A stretch of 55,349 nt of DNA from contig JACRML010000088.1 of NCBI GenBank assembly GCA_016214995.1, positions 1-55,349 on the forward strand, given 5' to 3'. Below are positions 2,997 through 9,384 of the stretch, one piece after another. The position numbers and the translations under genes are program-made. How positions within the stretch are numbered: the stretch's first letter is position 1; every line of letters begins with the position of its first letter. The notes under the pieces are model-generated. The model searched no databases. It saw only the letters and a list, made by a program, of their open reading frames with translations, and was not told the DNA's origin. This DNA is from Deltaproteobacteria bacterium (GTDB lineage: Bacteria; Desulfobacterota; GWC2-55-46; UBA9637).

Positions 2997-5030
2997 ATGA
3001 AACTTACTGACAACGAAATCCGGGACATAACCAAATATTTGGAAGAAGGCAAGCCGCTTCCTGATATGTATCGCTTTCTGCTGTTCGGCGATAAGAGGGA
3101 GGTGGAGCTTGTCTGGAACGGCAAGACGAATGAGGTTACAAACGTTGTGCTGCCTTTTCAGGTTATTGAGCATGTGGATGAGCCGAGGGCTGAGAAGGAT
3201 ACGAGGATACAGACCTCTCTTTTTGATTTTGACAACCGGGGACGGCAGGTTAAGGGCTGGACAAATAAACTTATATGGGGCGATAACAAACTCATACTTT
3301 CAAGCCTAAAGAACGGGCCGCTCCGTGAAGAAATAGAGGCTCAAGGCGGGATAAAACTGATTTACATAGACCCGCCTTTTGATGTAGGTGCTGATTTTTC
3401 AATGGACATTGAAATAGGCGATGAGCAATTCACAAAACAGCCGGGGGTATTGGAGGAGCTTGCATATAGGGATACATGGGGAAAAGGCGCTGATAGTTTT
3501 ATTGCAATGATTTATGAGCGGCTTTCATTGATGCGGGATTTATTGGCTGAGGATGGGAGTATTTTTGTTCATTGTGATTGGCGTGTTAACAGCTTGATTA
3601 GATTAGTCATGGACGAAATTTTTGGGAACGATAATTTTAGAAATGAAATTATTTGGTGTTATGAAACAGCAGGTAAAAGCAAGTCTACTTGGTCAAGAAA
3701 ACACGACAACATGTACTTTTACAGTAAAAATGACAATTACATCTTTGACCCGTTTCGGTCTACAATGCCGAGAAAGGAAAACAAACACATGAAGATGGGC
3801 ATTGATGAAGATAGGCGTATGTATGAAGAAAAGACTGATAAAAAAACAGGCAAGGTTTACCGCTGGTACTTTGATGAAAGAAAATTGCCTATGGATTTTT
3901 GGATAGATATTCCATTTATAAATTGGGAAGCTCATGAAAGGACTGGTTATGCTACACAAAAACCAGAAAAATTATTAGAAAGAATAATAAACTTTTGTTC
4001 AAATGAAAGCGACCTTGTTGCCGACTTCTTCTGCGGTTCCGGCACAACTCTCGCCGTTGCAGAAAAACTTGGACGCAAATGGCTCGGCTCAGACCTCGGC
4101 AAATTTGCCATTCATACAAGCCGCAAGAGGATGATTGGCGTTCAGAGGGAGTTAAAGAAGGAAGGCAAAAATTACAGGGCGTTTGAGATTTTGAATCTTG
4201 GAAAATACGAAAGGCAGCATTATATAGGGATAGATTCCTCACATTCGTTCGGAATGACAGATAAAACTGTCGGAATGACAAAAGAAACTGTCATTTCGAC
4301 CAAAGGGAGAAATCTTACCCGTCAGGAAATGCAACAACGCATGATTGCAAGAAAGGAAAAGGCGTTTTTGGAACTTATCCTGCGCGCTTATCGGGCGGAA
4401 GGGGTTGAGGGGTTTAAAACATTTCACGGCAAGAAAGCAGCGCGGCTTGTGGCGGTTGGCCCGATTAACCTTCCTGTAACCCGTTTGTTTGTGGATGAGG
4501 TAATTAAAGAGTGTCTTGCAAATAAGATTTCAAAGGTAGATGTCCTTGCCTTTGAATTTGAAATGGGGCTTTTCCCGAATATTCAGGAAGAGGCAAAGAA
4601 AAAGGGGATTGATTTAGCGCTTAAATATATCCCAAGAGATGTGTTTGACAAGCGGGCTGTTGAAAAGAATCAGGTTGTTTTCCACGATGTCTCGTATATT
4701 GAAGTAAAACCGCATGTAACCCCCCTTTCATCCCCCCTTAGCAAGGGGGGAACGAGAGGGGTTGCAGTAGAGTTGACTGACTTTTCGGTTTATTATAATC
4801 AGGACTCCATTGCCAATGCAGAGTCAACTCTTAAAAACGGCAAAAGCAAATTGGTGGTGGAAAACGGAAAGATTATAAAGGTATCAAAGGATAAGGACGG
4901 CATTGTAAGCCGTGACATTTTGACAAAGAAGTGGACTGACTGGATTGACTACTGGGCAGTGGATTTTGATTTTGAGAGTAAGAAAGAAATTGTCAGGATA
5001 CCGGTAAATCCCCCCCCAGCCCCCCTTTGA
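2997..5030 (+). CDS. mod: Type III restriction-modification methyltransferase (Mod), frame broken near the 3' end
   Basis: This is the modification subunit of a type III system, an N6-adenine DNA methyltransferase that also reads the target sequence. The catalytic motif DPPF (KLIYIDPPFDVG, about residue 126) comes before the AdoMet motif FCGSGTT (about residue 344), the order of beta-class methylases. The visible frame gives 677 residues and stops at a TGA inside a palindromic repeat. One base less in the C8 run at 5010-5017 would restore the frame through to 5241, giving about 747 residues with the conserved-looking tail. Three palindromic repeats lie inside the gene, at 4232-4315, 4718-4763 and 5006-5055; the first two are read through in frame. 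Genes for an Abi protein and others follow, then a truncated res. Confidence 0.88.
   Translation: MKLTDNEIRDITKYLEEGKPLPDMYRFLLFGDKREVELVWNGKTNEVTNVVLPFQVIEHVDEPRAEKDTRIQTSLFDFDNRGRQVKGWTNKLIWGDNKLILSSLKNGPLREEIEAQGGIKLIYIDPPFDVGADFSMDIEIGDEQFTKQPGVLEELAYRDTWGKGADSFIAMIYERLSLMRDLLAEDGSIFVHCDWRVNSLIRLVMDEIFGNDNFRNEIIWCYETAGKSKSTWSRKHDNMYFYSKNDNYIFDPFRSTMPRKENKHMKMGIDEDRRMYEEKTDKKTGKVYRWYFDERKLPMDFWIDIPFINWEAHERTGYATQKPEKLLERIINFCSNESDLVADFFCGSGTTLAVAEKLGRKWLGSDLGKFAIHTSRKRMIGVQRELKKEGKNYRAFEILNLGKYERQHYIGIDSSHSFGMTDKTVGMTKETVISTKGRNLTRQEMQQRMIARKEKAFLELILRAYRAEGVEGFKTFHGKKAARLVAVGPINLPVTRLFVDEVIKECLANKISKVDVLAFEFEMGLFPNIQEEAKKKGIDLALKYIPRDVFDKRAVEKNQVVFHDVSYIEVKPHVTPLSSPLSKGGTRGVAVELTDFSVYYNQDSIANAESTLKNGKSKLVVENGKIIKVSKDKDGIVSRDILTKKWTDWIDYWAVDFDFESKKEIVRIPVNPPPAPL
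4232..4315. repeat. Palindromic repeat inside mod (first)
   Basis: A left arm AGATTCCTCACATTCGTTCG and a right arm whose reverse complement starts AGATTTCTCCCTTTGGTCG flank a short centre with repeated CGGAATGACA units. The element adds a Ser/Thr/Lys/Met-rich insert (SSHSFGMTDKTVGMTKETV) to Mod between the methylase core and the downstream region without breaking the frame. Its length (84 bases) is a multiple of three. Confidence 0.65.
4718..4763. repeat. Palindromic repeat inside mod (second)
   Basis: C-rich and G-rich arms (AACCCCCCTTTCATCCCCCC and the matching GGGGGG...GAGAGGGGTT) form a strong hairpin. It is read in frame as TPLSSPLSKGGTRGV. It looks like the same family as the repeat at 5006-5055. 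Confidence 0.65.
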
Positions 5031-5055
5031 AAAAGGGGGGAGCAAGGGGGGATTT
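5006..5055. repeat. Palindromic repeat inside mod (third), holding the C8 run and the stop
   Basis: The element runs AAATCCCCCCCC...GGGGGGATTT with a CTTTGAAAAAG centre. It contains a run of eight C (5010-5017) and a run of six C, and in the present frame it supplies the TGA at 5028-5030 that ends Mod. With seven C the frame reads NPPQPPFEKGGSKGGFEE and enters the rest of the gene. Confidence 0.7.
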
Positions 5056-5244: not shown

Positions 5245-6051
5245 ATGCGAATTTCATCTAAGACGATTGACTTTTTAAAAGATTTGGTCACTGGAGATAG
5301 TAATATAACCGAATATAAATCTGGTCCTCGTCTTGTTGAGTTTTTCAATTCGTTGGGTTTCAATGATTCGTATGGGCAAGGCTTTCCGAGCAGATGGGCT
5401 TATGCAAAACAAAAAATAGAAGAAGTCAATAGCTCTAAGAAGTTAGAAGATTTAATTAAATCGCTATTGAATCCAATTAACTTTATAGATAATGAGGAAA
5501 AACTATTTGCAATTATTGAGAGTCTTAATAAGTATTTGGATTTTGATGGCTATAAGGTTCTGATTAAGGATAAAAAATGCAAGATAGTCACATTAAACAG
5601 CAAAGAAATTGAAATTGAAAATACAAAGCATTTAGACGATGATTTTATTCTTGAACAAATCAAAAAATCCGAAGAGAAGATAACTTTGGGTGATTTTGAC
5701 GGAGCAATAACAAATGCGCGCTCATTGCTTGAAAGTGTAATTGGACACATTCATAAGCATTTAACAGGAGAAGAATTAGAAAAGACTGGCGACCTTAAAA
5801 AAGATTATAAAAACGTGCGTAATTCGCTAAATTTGACCCCTGACAAATATGCTGACGAAAATATCAAACAAATACTCAATGGCTTCATTTCAATTGTTGA
5901 TGGAATTGACAGAATAAGCAATCAAATGGGCGATAGGCATAGGAGAAGAGTTAAGCCGGAAAAGCACCATGCTAAATTGGCTGTGAATTCAGCAAAAACA
6001 TTATCGGATTTTTTATACGACACATGGTTGTATCAGAAAAGTAAAAAATAA
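5245..6051 (+). CDS. Abortive-infection-type protein with C-terminal Abi_C-like domain
   Basis: The 268-residue protein is mostly charged and helical. Its C-terminal third (about 170-262), with NSLNLTPDKYADENIKQIL, MGDRHRRRVKPEKHHAKLA and VNSAKTLSDFLYDT, resembles the Abi_C domain found in abortive infection proteins: a conserved R-H...H-H pattern followed by an A-x-x-LxxFL helix. The N-terminal part is not recognised. It sits three bases after the reading frame of the Mod tail, inside the type III locus, so a role in phage defence is likely by context. What triggers it and what it does are not known from sequence. Confidence 0.7.
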   Translation: MRISSKTIDFLKDLVTGDSNITEYKSGPRLVEFFNSLGFNDSYGQGFPSRWAYAKQKIEEVNSSKKLEDLIKSLLNPINFIDNEEKLFAIIESLNKYLDFDGYKVLIKDKKCKIVTLNSKEIEIENTKHLDDDFILEQIKKSEEKITLGDFDGAITNARSLLESVIGHIHKHLTGEELEKTGDLKKDYKNVRNSLNLTPDKYADENIKQILNGFISIVDGIDRISNQMGDRHRRRVKPEKHHAKLAVNSAKTLSDFLYDTWLYQKSKK

Positions 6052-6098
6052 TTGACTCTACATCCAAAATTTGTGAAGTTGAGGCAAATTAAAACACT

Positions 6099-6992
6099 AT
6101 GCTCCTTAATCGTCAAAAGGCTTTATTAAACTACATCTCTATCTCTGGAGAGATTAAAAGCAAAACCCTGCTTGTAAAGGCGTTGTTTCTGCTTTGCGAG
6201 GAAGAATTGAGGCCCCGCGGTTGTCCGCTATACGATTTTTTTCCGTATAAATATGGACCTTTTTCATTTAGTTTAATGAAATGCGATATTCAAAAATTGA
6301 TTAAGGAGGGCATTATCTCTGATTTACCTTATCGGATACTTGACAAGAGGCGCGCTAACGAAATAATTGGCGGCTTAGACGGCGTGATGTCTTCCGCTTT
6401 GGAGAGAATACATAATACATACGGCAAAATGAGTGTGGCGAAAATTAAAGATTATGTTTATGCCCGCTATCCGTATTTTGCCATTCATAATGAGAACAAT
6501 CCAGAAGCCTATTTGCCGCATGACCCTGCCAATAGCCCATTGCTTCAGGAAGCGCGCATTTTTACGATAGGCTACGAAGGCAGAAGTTTAGACGCTTTTC
6601 TAAATACTCTTATTGCAAATAATATTAAGACGCTTGTTGACATCAGGAATAATCCTGTGAGCATGAAATATGGATTTACCGGCAGGCTGCTGAAACATTA
6701 TGTGGAAGAGACAGGAATCAAATATATCTCTATTCCGGAACTTGGTATAGAAAGCCGGCACAGAAAAAATTTGGACAATCAGGATGATTATATAACTTTG
6801 TTTAAAATTTATGAAAGCAAAATCCTGCCGCAAAGAAAAGATAAGATGGCAAGGCTAAAAAATTTGATTACGCAGGAAAAGCGACTCGCCTTGATGTGCT
6901 TTGAAAAAGATGAGCGAATGTGCCATCGCGGTATAGCAAGCCGTTACTTTCAGAATTGGTGCGATAACAAATATGGATTATCTCATATCTGA
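6099..6992 (+). CDS. DUF488 protein with an N-terminal Panacea-like domain
   Basis: The C-terminal half (about residues 154-290) is a DUF488 domain: FTIGYEGRSLDAFL, LVDIRNNPVSMKYGF, and CFEKDERMCHRGIAS, which holds the family Cys/His/Arg motif. The N-terminal half (about 1-130) has QKALLNYI...KTLLVKALFLL...YDFFPYKYGPFS, which resembles the SocA/Panacea-type domain (DUF4065) that occurs in antitoxins. Such fusions are seen near defence genes. The activity of DUF488 is not established. The gene overlaps the next one by 20 bases, so the two are very likely translated together. Confidence 0.72.
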   Translation: MLLNRQKALLNYISISGEIKSKTLLVKALFLLCEEELRPRGCPLYDFFPYKYGPFSFSLMKCDIQKLIKEGIISDLPYRILDKRRANEIIGGLDGVMSSALERIHNTYGKMSVAKIKDYVYARYPYFAIHNENNPEAYLPHDPANSPLLQEARIFTIGYEGRSLDAFLNTLIANNIKTLVDIRNNPVSMKYGFTGRLLKHYVEETGIKYISIPELGIESRHRKNLDNQDDYITLFKIYESKILPQRKDKMARLKNLITQEKRLALMCFEKDERMCHRGIASRYFQNWCDNKYGLSHI

Positions 6993-7776
6993 CACAGACG
7001 ACAAGTTTTCTAAAAAGAAGGTTAAGGTTTTAATTACAGTAAAAACCTATCCCCTCCCATCAAAAACATATCAGGAAACTGTATGCACCGCAGGAGTTAA
7101 AGAAGACGGCACATGGATTAGATTATATCCGGTAAGTTTCCGCTATTTACCATATAGCCAGCAATATAAAAAATATCAGTGGATTGAACTTGAGGTGGTC
7201 AAACATGAAAAAGACCCGCGAAATGAAAGTTATAAACCTTACGGTGAAATCAAAATTCTCGGTCAAATAGGCACACAAAATAATTGGGAAGAAAGAAAAA
7301 GATATGTCTTAAAGCATATTCAACCATCGTTAGAATTGCTGAAAGAAAAAAGTAAAGGCGGGGTATCTCTTGGCGTTATCAAGCCAAAAGAGATTTTAGA
7401 TTTTACTGTTGAGCCGGTATCCGGCGAATGGAAAGATAAATGGCAAGCTCTTTTTAAACAATTAAAATTATTTGGAGAACAGCAAAAACCATTGGAAAAG
7501 ATACCTTATAAATTCAGCTATAGATTTACTTGCTGCGGAGAAAATTGTGCTGGCCATAAGATAATGATTGAGGATTGGGAAATTTATGCGCTATATCGCA
7601 ATATGCTTAAAACTTATGGTTCAAAAGATAAGGCGATTGAGAAGGTAACAGAACAATATTTGCATCGCTTTCCAAAAGAAAAAGACCTTTATTTCTTTAT
7701 GGGAACAACAAGAAAAGACCACCATAGAGGAACCTTTGTAATAATTGGGGTATTTTGGCCCAAAAAGGAAATTTGA
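6973..7776 (+). CDS. Unrecognised protein with a Cys/His cluster and a DWE motif
   Basis: I do not recognise a named family. The 267-residue protein starts with KVLITVKTYPLPSKTYQETV and TAGVKEDGTWIRLYPV, and has in its C-terminal half CCGENCAGHK followed by IEDWE (Cys187, Cys188, Cys192, His195, Asp201, Glu203). The Cys/His residues could bind a metal, and the acidic pair could be catalytic; this is inference. It ends with a beta-rich stretch, GTFVIIGVFWPKK. Its start lies within the last codons of the DUF488 gene and its stop lies four bases before the res start, so it is part of one tight operon with them. Confidence 0.6.
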   Translation: MDYLISDTDDKFSKKKVKVLITVKTYPLPSKTYQETVCTAGVKEDGTWIRLYPVSFRYLPYSQQYKKYQWIELEVVKHEKDPRNESYKPYGEIKILGQIGTQNNWEERKRYVLKHIQPSLELLKEKSKGGVSLGVIKPKEILDFTVEPVSGEWKDKWQALFKQLKLFGEQQKPLEKIPYKFSYRFTCCGENCAGHKIMIEDWEIYALYRNMLKTYGSKDKAIEKVTEQYLHRFPKEKDLYFFMGTTRKDHHRGTFVIIGVFWPKKEI

Positions 7777-7780
7777 ATAT

Positions 7781-8524
7781 ATGGCGCTGCACCCTAAATC
7801 CCCAAAATCTCCATACGAAATACTTGAGCCTGACTATCGCTGGTTTCCGGCTGATGAGGCTTTGCGCGAGCAGGGATATGAAAAACTCCTGCCGCCTCTC
7901 GTTGCTTCCATTAGAAAGAAAGTTAAGGAATGGCGAGATGCTGATTATAAAGGGGCAAGCCCTACAAGCATAGCCCTTTTAAAGTGGTGGTTTCAGACTG
8001 AACATTTGTTGCCGCATGCAGATGGAACAGGGGTGAAATTCCAATACTATTTCGGACAACAGGAGGCAGTAGAAACAGTTGTGTATTTATATGAAGTACT
8101 CGGGGTTAAGGATAAATACGATTTGATTAGATTTGACAGTTCTGGCGCTGTTTCTGCCGGGATGTTTGCCGAGAATTGGAAAAGGTTTGTTATCAAGATG
8201 GCAACAGGAAGCGGCAAGACTAAGGTTATGAGTCTGATATTGGCGTGGAGTTACTTTCACAAAATATATGAGTCTGATTCAACCCTTGCAAGGAATTTTC
8301 TGTTAATAACCCCAAACATTATAGTGCTTGACCGCATAAGAAGCGATTTTGACGGGCTTAAAATATTCTTCCAAGACCCTGTCCTGCCTGACAATGGCTA
8401 CGAGGGGCAGAATTGGAGGGACGATTTTCAACTGACCCTGCATATTCAGGATGATATTGGAATCGTCAGAAAAACAGGGAATATCTTTCTTACAAATATC
8501 CATCGTGTTTATAGAGGAAAATAG
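7781..8524 (+). pseudogene. Type III restriction endonuclease (Res), N-terminal stump
   Basis: Type III Res subunits are about 900-1000 residues with helicase and nuclease domains. Only the first 247 residues remain. They include the Walker A motif MATGSGKTKVM (about residue 140) and TPNIIVLDRIRSDFDGL, and end at NIFLTNIHRVYRGK. The helicase second half and the nuclease domain are missing. The break coincides with a 10-base tandem repeat at 8511-8580 that brings several TAG/TAA codons. I start at the ATG at 7781 because AAGGA lies about 10 bases upstream; an in-frame ATG at 7745 lies inside the previous gene. The fragment cannot cut DNA. Confidence 0.85.
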
Positions 8525-8580
8525 AGGAAATAAGAGGAAATAGAGGGAAATAGAGGGGAAATAGAGGGAAATAGAGGGAC
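8511..8580. repeat. Tandem repeat of about 10 bases, seven units, at the break in res
   Basis: Seven imperfect copies of ATAGAGGAAA follow one another (the later ones ATAGAGGGAA). The repeat starts inside the last codons of the res stump and gives stop codons in its frame. Such a tract can grow or shrink by slippage. Confidence 0.85.
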
Positions 8581-8832: not shown

Positions 8833-9093
8833 ATGAAAACATTGTCGCTCTCTGAGGCAAAGATGAAACTAAGCAGCCTTGTGGATTCGGTATATAAAAC
8901 TGACGAGGAGGTCATCATTACAAAAAACGGCTCGCCTGCTGCAGTCCTGATAAGCCCTGATGAGTTTGAAGGATGGAAGGAGACTATTGCCATACGTTCT
9001 GATGCTGCCTTTATGGAGGAAATAAAGAAGGGGTTGGCATCCCTAAAAAAAGGCAGGGCAAAGTTCTATACACTCGAGGAGCTGTTCAGATAG
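8833..9093 (+). CDS. Antitoxin, Phd/YefM family
   Basis: This 86-residue protein has the Phd/YefM N-terminal DNA-binding fold: MKTLSLSEAKMKLSSLVDSV, then EEVIITKNGSPAAVLISPDEFEGW. The C-terminal part (about 55-86), rich in Lys and Glu, would wrap the toxin. Such antitoxins neutralise a RelE-type RNase and repress their own promoter; the palindrome upstream fits this. A ribosome site GAGG lies about 8 bases before the ATG. Its stop TAG directly abuts the ATG of the toxin gene. Confidence 0.9.
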   Translation: MKTLSLSEAKMKLSSLVDSVYKTDEEVIITKNGSPAAVLISPDEFEGWKETIAIRSDAAFMEEIKKGLASLKKGRAKFYTLEELFR

Positions 9094-9384
9094 ATGAGCA
9101 TTCTCAGGCTGCAAATGTCTGATGAGACGGCGGACTTACTACGCTCCCTTCACCCTGATATAAAACGAAAGATTAAGGCCGCATTACAAACTGTTTTAAG
9201 TGACCCCCTGTCAGGCAAGACATTAAAAGATGAACTTGAGGGACTGCAAAGTTTTAAAGTGTGGAAGTTCAGGGTGATTTATAAAACAACAAAAGACAAA
9301 GGAGTCATTGAAGTTGTAACCATTGGACCTCGAAAAACTATATATGAAGAAACTTTGAGGCTTTTAAAAAGGGGAAAATTATAA
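9094..9384 (+). CDS. Toxin, RelE/ParE superfamily
   Basis: The 96-residue product has the RelE/ParE layout: two N-terminal helices (LHPDIKRKIKAALQTVLSDP), then GKTLKDELEGLQSFKVWKFRVIYK, and a final strand VVTIGPRKTIYEE. RelE toxins cut mRNA at the ribosome; ParE toxins poison gyrase. The KFRVIYK core and the R-K-x-x-Y-E end favour the RelE side, but this is not certain. It follows the antitoxin with no gap, the standard order. It appears intact. Confidence 0.9.
   Translation: MSILRLQMSDETADLLRSLHPDIKRKIKAALQTVLSDPLSGKTLKDELEGLQSFKVWKFRVIYKTTKDKGVIEVVTIGPRKTIYEETLRLLKRGKL

Follow-up and report, generated by a model that had tools for sequence, protein, structure and literature searches.

The window, a stretch of 55,349 nucleotides of DNA analyzed as a whole, contains one ordinary copy of PDC-M19, a gene pair that encodes a DUF488 fusion (PDC-M19A, here protein A) and a divergent dual-OB protein (PDC-M19B, here protein B). 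Both proteins match the respective PADLOC models over their full length (PDLC04505 for A, 6.9e-85, residues 3-297 of 297; PDLC04508 for B, 4.8e-97, residues 16-266), and the module is therefore one that PADLOC has already catalogued as a candidate anti-phage module. A first-pass annotation, which missed these matches, had described it as unlisted. A and B are neighbors at 63 of the 64 testable loci, and the two diverge in step. The unit is therefore the pair of DUF488 fusion and dual-OB gene, a mobile two-protein module, rather than a trio with the gene upstream. In the mechanism that we consider most probable (roughly 0.55), B would bind nucleic acid through its tandem OB fold, the DUF488 domain of A would modify or process it, and the N-terminal part of A would exert regulation, with the module playing a role in conflicts between mobile elements and their hosts. 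A full-text literature search for PDC-M19 returned no experimental report, and searches combining DUF488 with dual OB or with rhodanese, or addressing DuOB, returned nothing relevant.

A gene pair within a damaged type III locus

Three open reading frames encoding proteins of 268, 297, and 267 residues lie in a row between the mod-like and res genes (Table 1). Their coordinates had been assigned correctly, as had the 20-nucleotide overlap between the second and third genes and the four nucleotides that separate the end of the dual-OB gene from the ATG at 7781 opening the res frame. The same 20-nucleotide overlap of the M19A and M19B genes is kept in L002, the closest relative.

Table 1. Coordinates of the features at the PDC-M19 locus of the window.
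Feature	Position	Strand	Remarks
mod-like type III DNA methyltransferase	2997-5030	+	Frameshift near the 3' end; original frame continues to about 5241
Imperfect palindromic poly-C/poly-G insert	5006-5055		Inverted repeat; carries the mod frameshift
AbiJ-like protein, Abi_C domain	5245-6051	+	PF14355, 1.9e-18; PADLOC AbiJ
PDC-M19A: N-terminal Panacea-like and C-terminal DUF488	6099-6992	+	PADLOC PDLC04505; PF04343
PDC-M19B: divergent dual-OB (DuOB-like) protein	6973-7776	+	PADLOC PDLC04508
res 5' quarter (type III restriction helicase), remainder deleted	7781-8524	+	ResIII, 3.2e-10
Tandem repeat, consensus ATAGAGGGAA, at the res truncation point	8511-8579		Tandem Repeats Finder

The view that both mod and res are broken holds fully for res and in part for mod. 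The res gene is genuinely truncated: about 245 codons match the 928-residue res of L002 (96% identity across 244 codons) before the tandem repeat is reached. The missing segment of about 2 kb is absent from the source assembly, which is 82.5% complete, the best candidate being a 132-base match of 72% on another contig. The mod gene (N6_N4_Mtase in Pfam, 1.8e-43; MTase_III in PADLOC, 1.6e-111) has lost only its last 64 or so codons through the frameshift in the insert, an inverted repeat (I1) with 23-nucleotide arms that are 74% complementary; the DPPF and FCGSGT motifs are intact, and the C-terminal frame is recovered downstream of the insert. A shorter, in-frame form of the insert, reading NPPQPPFSKGGF, occupies the same place in the mod gene of L002, and the orthologues in L002 and L003 comprise 732 and 735 residues, respectively. 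Two more short in-frame insertions, scored relative to L002/L003 or to L002, are seen in mod at about 4242-4317 (residues 415-440) and 4722-4752 (residues 575-585) of the window. A type III restriction-modification system takes an intact mod and an intact res; here, mod is frameshifted at its end and res is cut near codon 245. Just past the truncated res, at 8833-9384, lies a pair of genes for a Phd/YefM antitoxin and a ParE-like toxin.

The first of the three genes matches AbiJ (PDLC02347, 4.4e-34), and its assignment as an Abi_C protein was confirmed. Its inclusion in a three-gene cassette was not, with no Abi_C homologue found in the 26 related genome loci (L002-L027). The AbiJ-like gene, absent from other M19 loci, is a separate neighbor that lies outside the conserved pair. 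In L002, a Nitrospinae MAG, the order is mod, an AlbA_2/ATPase gene, M19A, M19B, and res, with mod and res both intact, and in L003, a Nitrospirae MAG, the order is the same up to the end of the contig inside M19B. The gene between mod and the pair in these two closest relatives (L002:5330-6937 and L003:4632-6245) encodes Schlafen-AlbA_2 and HATPase_c_4 domains; in the window, the AbiJ-like gene is found there. This suggests that the slot between mod and the M19 pair is exchangeable.

The recurrence of the pair downstream of an intact mod in L002 and L003, followed by an intact res in L002, would be in line with a helper function in type III restriction, in which the pair acts on DNA ends made by Mod-Res. 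In L004 the pair adjoins a type ISP enzyme, and in L011 it adjoins a methyltransferase. However, a restriction enzyme is absent beside most family members, and we regard such a helper function as highly improbable.

The cassette had further been proposed to be under selection by itself. Pairwise omega values are 0.13-0.24 for A, 0.12-0.13 for B, 0.12-0.17 for mod, and 0.06 for the res fragment; they average over the time preceding the breaks in mod and res, and neither show nor exclude that the pair was kept for its own sake. By dN/dS, the pair is indistinguishable from mod and res, independent selection is unsupported, and the pair of L002 lies inside an intact mod-res locus.

Composition of the two proteins

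DUF488, a common domain for which we know of no established role, forms the C-terminal part of A (about residues 154-296), as had been annotated (PF04343, 7e-25; 88.4 bits against a cut-off of 22.2). Among 59 complete A/B pairs, Y159, D181, R183, C267, E269, C275, H276, and R277 are each invariant (59/59), and the DUF488 cysteine motif C-x-E...C-H-R is present throughout. In the AlphaFold2 model of A (pLDDT 88), C267 comes after a predicted strand at residues 262-266, and it is at this type of position that the catalytic cysteine is expected in rhodanese and phosphatase folds; the paper describing the rhodanese/phosphatase superfamily reportedly included DUF488. A Foldseek search with the fusion protein yielded nothing below E 0.001, and a sequence search of solved structures with the profiles of A and B yielded nothing usable. 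The weak structural matches of A to PTP-fold phosphatases (E 0.15 or worse) agree, short of proof, with C267 being a rhodanese/phosphatase-type catalytic cysteine. In A, the DUF488 domain would probably act as a rhodanese/phosphatase-like cysteine enzyme, modifying or processing the substrate held by B.

The Panacea-like label for the N-terminal part of A derives from weak but repeated matches among family members. With E values of up to 1 allowed, 11 of 22 relatives match SocA_Panacea (PF13274), the best at 0.004, whereas the window protein has no match. Elsewhere, the DUF488 domain is preceded by ParB-HTH or by an HTH-like extension, or stands alone, and the N-terminal part is thus interchangeable across pairs. 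It may serve as a replaceable regulatory or docking part.

A Panacea-like domain could also point to an abortive module of the toxin-antitoxin kind, in which either the DUF488 or the OB protein is a toxic effector that the Panacea-like domain restrains until infection. Detection of this N-terminus is weak but repeated, Panacea antitoxins are hyperpromiscuous and linked to defense (PMC10440598), the genes for A and B overlap as in toxin-antitoxin operons, and the pair is found on plasmids and temperate phages. Yet many pairs lack the Panacea part or have another part in its place, A and B genes are frequently convergent, an uncommon arrangement for toxin-antitoxin operons, and both proteins exceed the typical size of toxins and are conserved. 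Taken with these features, a toxin-antitoxin arrangement appears quite unlikely.

The reading that we prefer, a nucleic acid-binding protein paired with a processing enzyme, draws on the nature of B, a divergent dual-OB protein related to Pfam DuOB. DuOB is matched by 4 of 23 B family members (best 5.8e-4) and any other family by at most one; with respect to the DuOB (PF22557) cut-off of 27 bits, the window protein has no match and relatives reach 18.6 and 18.7 bits. In profile-profile comparison, B aligns with six canonical DuOB proteins at E=5.5e-5, compared to 0.25 for a DUF488 profile as a control; with a narrower alignment (A1), the match to DuOB is weak (E=0.01). The AlphaFold2 model of B, a protein that had been annotated as unknown, predicts a tandem-OB fold (pLDDT 82). 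The model matches tandem-OB proteins that bind ssDNA or DNA, namely the telomere-end binding protein alpha (TEBP-alpha), CST, and HIN-200 domains, at E values of 8e-5 to 8e-4. Because the TM-scores are low (about 0.3), these predicted fold matches support a tandem OB protein and imply no specific binding partner. B would most likely bind nucleic acid, possibly single strands or ends.

Conservation in B is strongest at residues other than those highlighted earlier. C38, R50, P53, D81, and R83 are each invariant in the 59 pairs. The first-pass annotation had numbered C187, C188, C192, H195, D201, and E203 correctly and had suggested that they could form a metal or catalytic site. The DWE motif is kept (D201 in 58 and E203 in 57 of 59 pairs), but C187 occurs in 39, C192 in 28, H195 in 36, and C188 in a few at most, and the Cys/His site is missing from the B proteins of Bacteroidota and from the Edaphobacter/Granulicella copies. 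With this poor conservation, the Cys/His site was rejected as a family-wide active site. In some branches, its role could be that of a structural zinc site.

Pairing, co-variation, and genomic context

The 64 testable loci comprise 25 genome loci, 6 genomes of the same phylum, 13 plasmid or phage records, and 20 viral contigs, and thereby cover bacteria, archaeal plasmids, Gordonia temperate phages, and viral contigs. A protein search of GTDB genomes returned 26 loci, and in all 25 with upstream DNA the DUF488 fusion gene is located directly upstream of the M19B gene. Within the phylum, M19B occurs in 6 of 297 genomes, including the source genome, each time with a DUF488 gene alongside (6/6). 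A DUF488 protein is the neighbor in 12 of the 13 plasmid and phage records, as a ParB fusion in two archaeal plasmids, the only exception being the Sulfolobus plasmid pSOG2, and in all 20 viral contigs. Gene orientation is variable: A may precede B, B may precede A, or the two may be convergent with overlapping ends. The window copy shares gene order and orientation with the other fusion members of PDC-M19 and differs in its setting between mod and a truncated res with an AbiJ-like gene alongside.

The earlier proposal that the two genes act together is borne out not only by adjacency but also by co-variation. In a mirror-tree analysis of the 59 complete pairs, distances among A and B proteins correlate with r=0.78, a value that may include shared host ancestry and was reached by 0 of 2000 shuffles; within subsets, r is 0.76 for the fusions and 0.70 for the rest. 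A quick FastTree phylogeny, which took in DUF488 proteins lacking an M19B partner, places all 34 Panacea-type fusions (34/34) in one clade with the window copy. One genome (G219) encodes a full M19A-like fusion (L049:1480-2400) and no M19B. DUF488 at large is not tied to M19B: 102 of the 297 phylum genomes have a DUF488 match, compared to 6 with M19B.

Genomic context is suggestive of defense, and mixed. Neighbors of the pair match 94 PADLOC families (E 1e-15), and the same number of genes drawn at random from the phylum matches 6; the contrast is overstated, with single methylases matching many models. Among the genes directly upstream of the pair, 2 of 10 are clear defense genes (type ISP restriction-modification and an HmaB-like methylase); among the rest are genes for a sulfatase, a peptidase, and a sugar transferase. 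Co-occurrence searches found the pair with mod and res in L002 and mostly without a restriction enzyme. A restriction-only association was rejected on these grounds.

The prevalence of non-defense genes among the direct neighbors in the sampled genomes, together with archaeal copies fused to ParB and several plasmid copies among metal-resistance genes, raises the alternative of a housekeeping or plasmid-maintenance unit that travels on mobile elements and serves nucleotide, tRNA, or DNA-end repair rather than defense. Set against this are the patchy distribution (6 of 297 phylum genomes), the occurrence of the pair on viral contigs and next to a phage repressor, and the listing of PDC-M19 as a defense candidate by the authors of PADLOC. 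A housekeeping role is, in our judgment, unlikely. The two-protein module would more likely serve in conflicts between mobile element and host, as a defense against phages or plasmids.

In Gordonia phage Eviarto (L034:3994-6241), the M19B-like gp43 begins on the final base of gp44, the immunity repressor gene, the DUF488 gene gp42 is convergent, and the gp42/gp43 region adjoins the integrase. Genes 43 and 44 of CarolAnn act in defense from a repressor-linked position (PMC6426606); the likeness to the Eviarto pair is in location only, and the genes are unrelated. The related phage Kita encodes RosmerTA, which protects E. coli (PMC10440598). As a hint of defense, the placement of the Eviarto pair would be an analogy of position only.

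A possible wider OB and DUF488 architecture

Canonical DuOB corresponds to PADLOC PDC-M45A, and the partners M45B and M45C are DUF488 proteins. DuOB adjoins DUF488 genes, usually two in tandem (M45B and M45C), at all eight places found (L088-L095). Given this adjacency and the relationship of B to DuOB, M19 and M45 appear to be two branches of a single kind. In both, an OB protein that starts with C-x-A-G...W-I-R-P is encoded next to its DUF488 partners. M45 differs from M19 in that it lacks a Panacea part and carries DUF488 as two separate genes, and M19B falls below the DuOB cut-off.

ParB-HTH-DUF488 fusions directly adjoin a DuOB-like gene in three of three archaeal plasmids (L042:3909-5834, Saccharolobus pBEU9E1; L040:5923-8113, Haloquadratum PL100; and NC_010597.1:23257-25098), an arrangement that parallels the Panacea-DUF488 fusion. 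CTP is bound by an archaeal protein in which a ParB fold is joined to DUF488-HTH (PMC12704722). This fusion resembles A in that DUF488 follows a regulatory DNA-binding part and in that the plasmid gene adjoins a DuOB-like gene; it differs in having ParB-HTH instead of a Panacea-like part, and CTP binding was demonstrated for one archaeal fusion, not for protein A of the window. In Sulfolobales plasmids, a small gene directly follows the DuOB-like gene (L035:5822-6328 and L042:5834-6325); by eye it has a PD-(D/E)XK-like pattern, and it has no meaningful match to a Pfam or PADLOC family.

More generally, and tentatively, PDC-M19, PDC-M45, and the archaeal ParB-DUF488/DuOB pairs might represent a single immune architecture of an OB protein plus a DUF488 enzyme. 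The tandem-OB protein would offer nucleic acid, perhaps its ends, to a new enzyme that modifies nucleic acids by cysteine chemistry, and the trigger would be set by an exchangeable N-terminal part (Panacea-like, ParB-HTH, or none).

The single copy in the window adds little by itself, and it is the link between M19, M45, and the ParB-DUF488 fusions that is worth following. Such near-absolute pairing, seen in bacteria and archaea and on plasmids and phages alike, points to a chemistry that DUF488 proteins have in common. The conserved residues listed here, together with the Gordonia phage pair beside its repressor, make both this chemistry and a role in defense directly testable.
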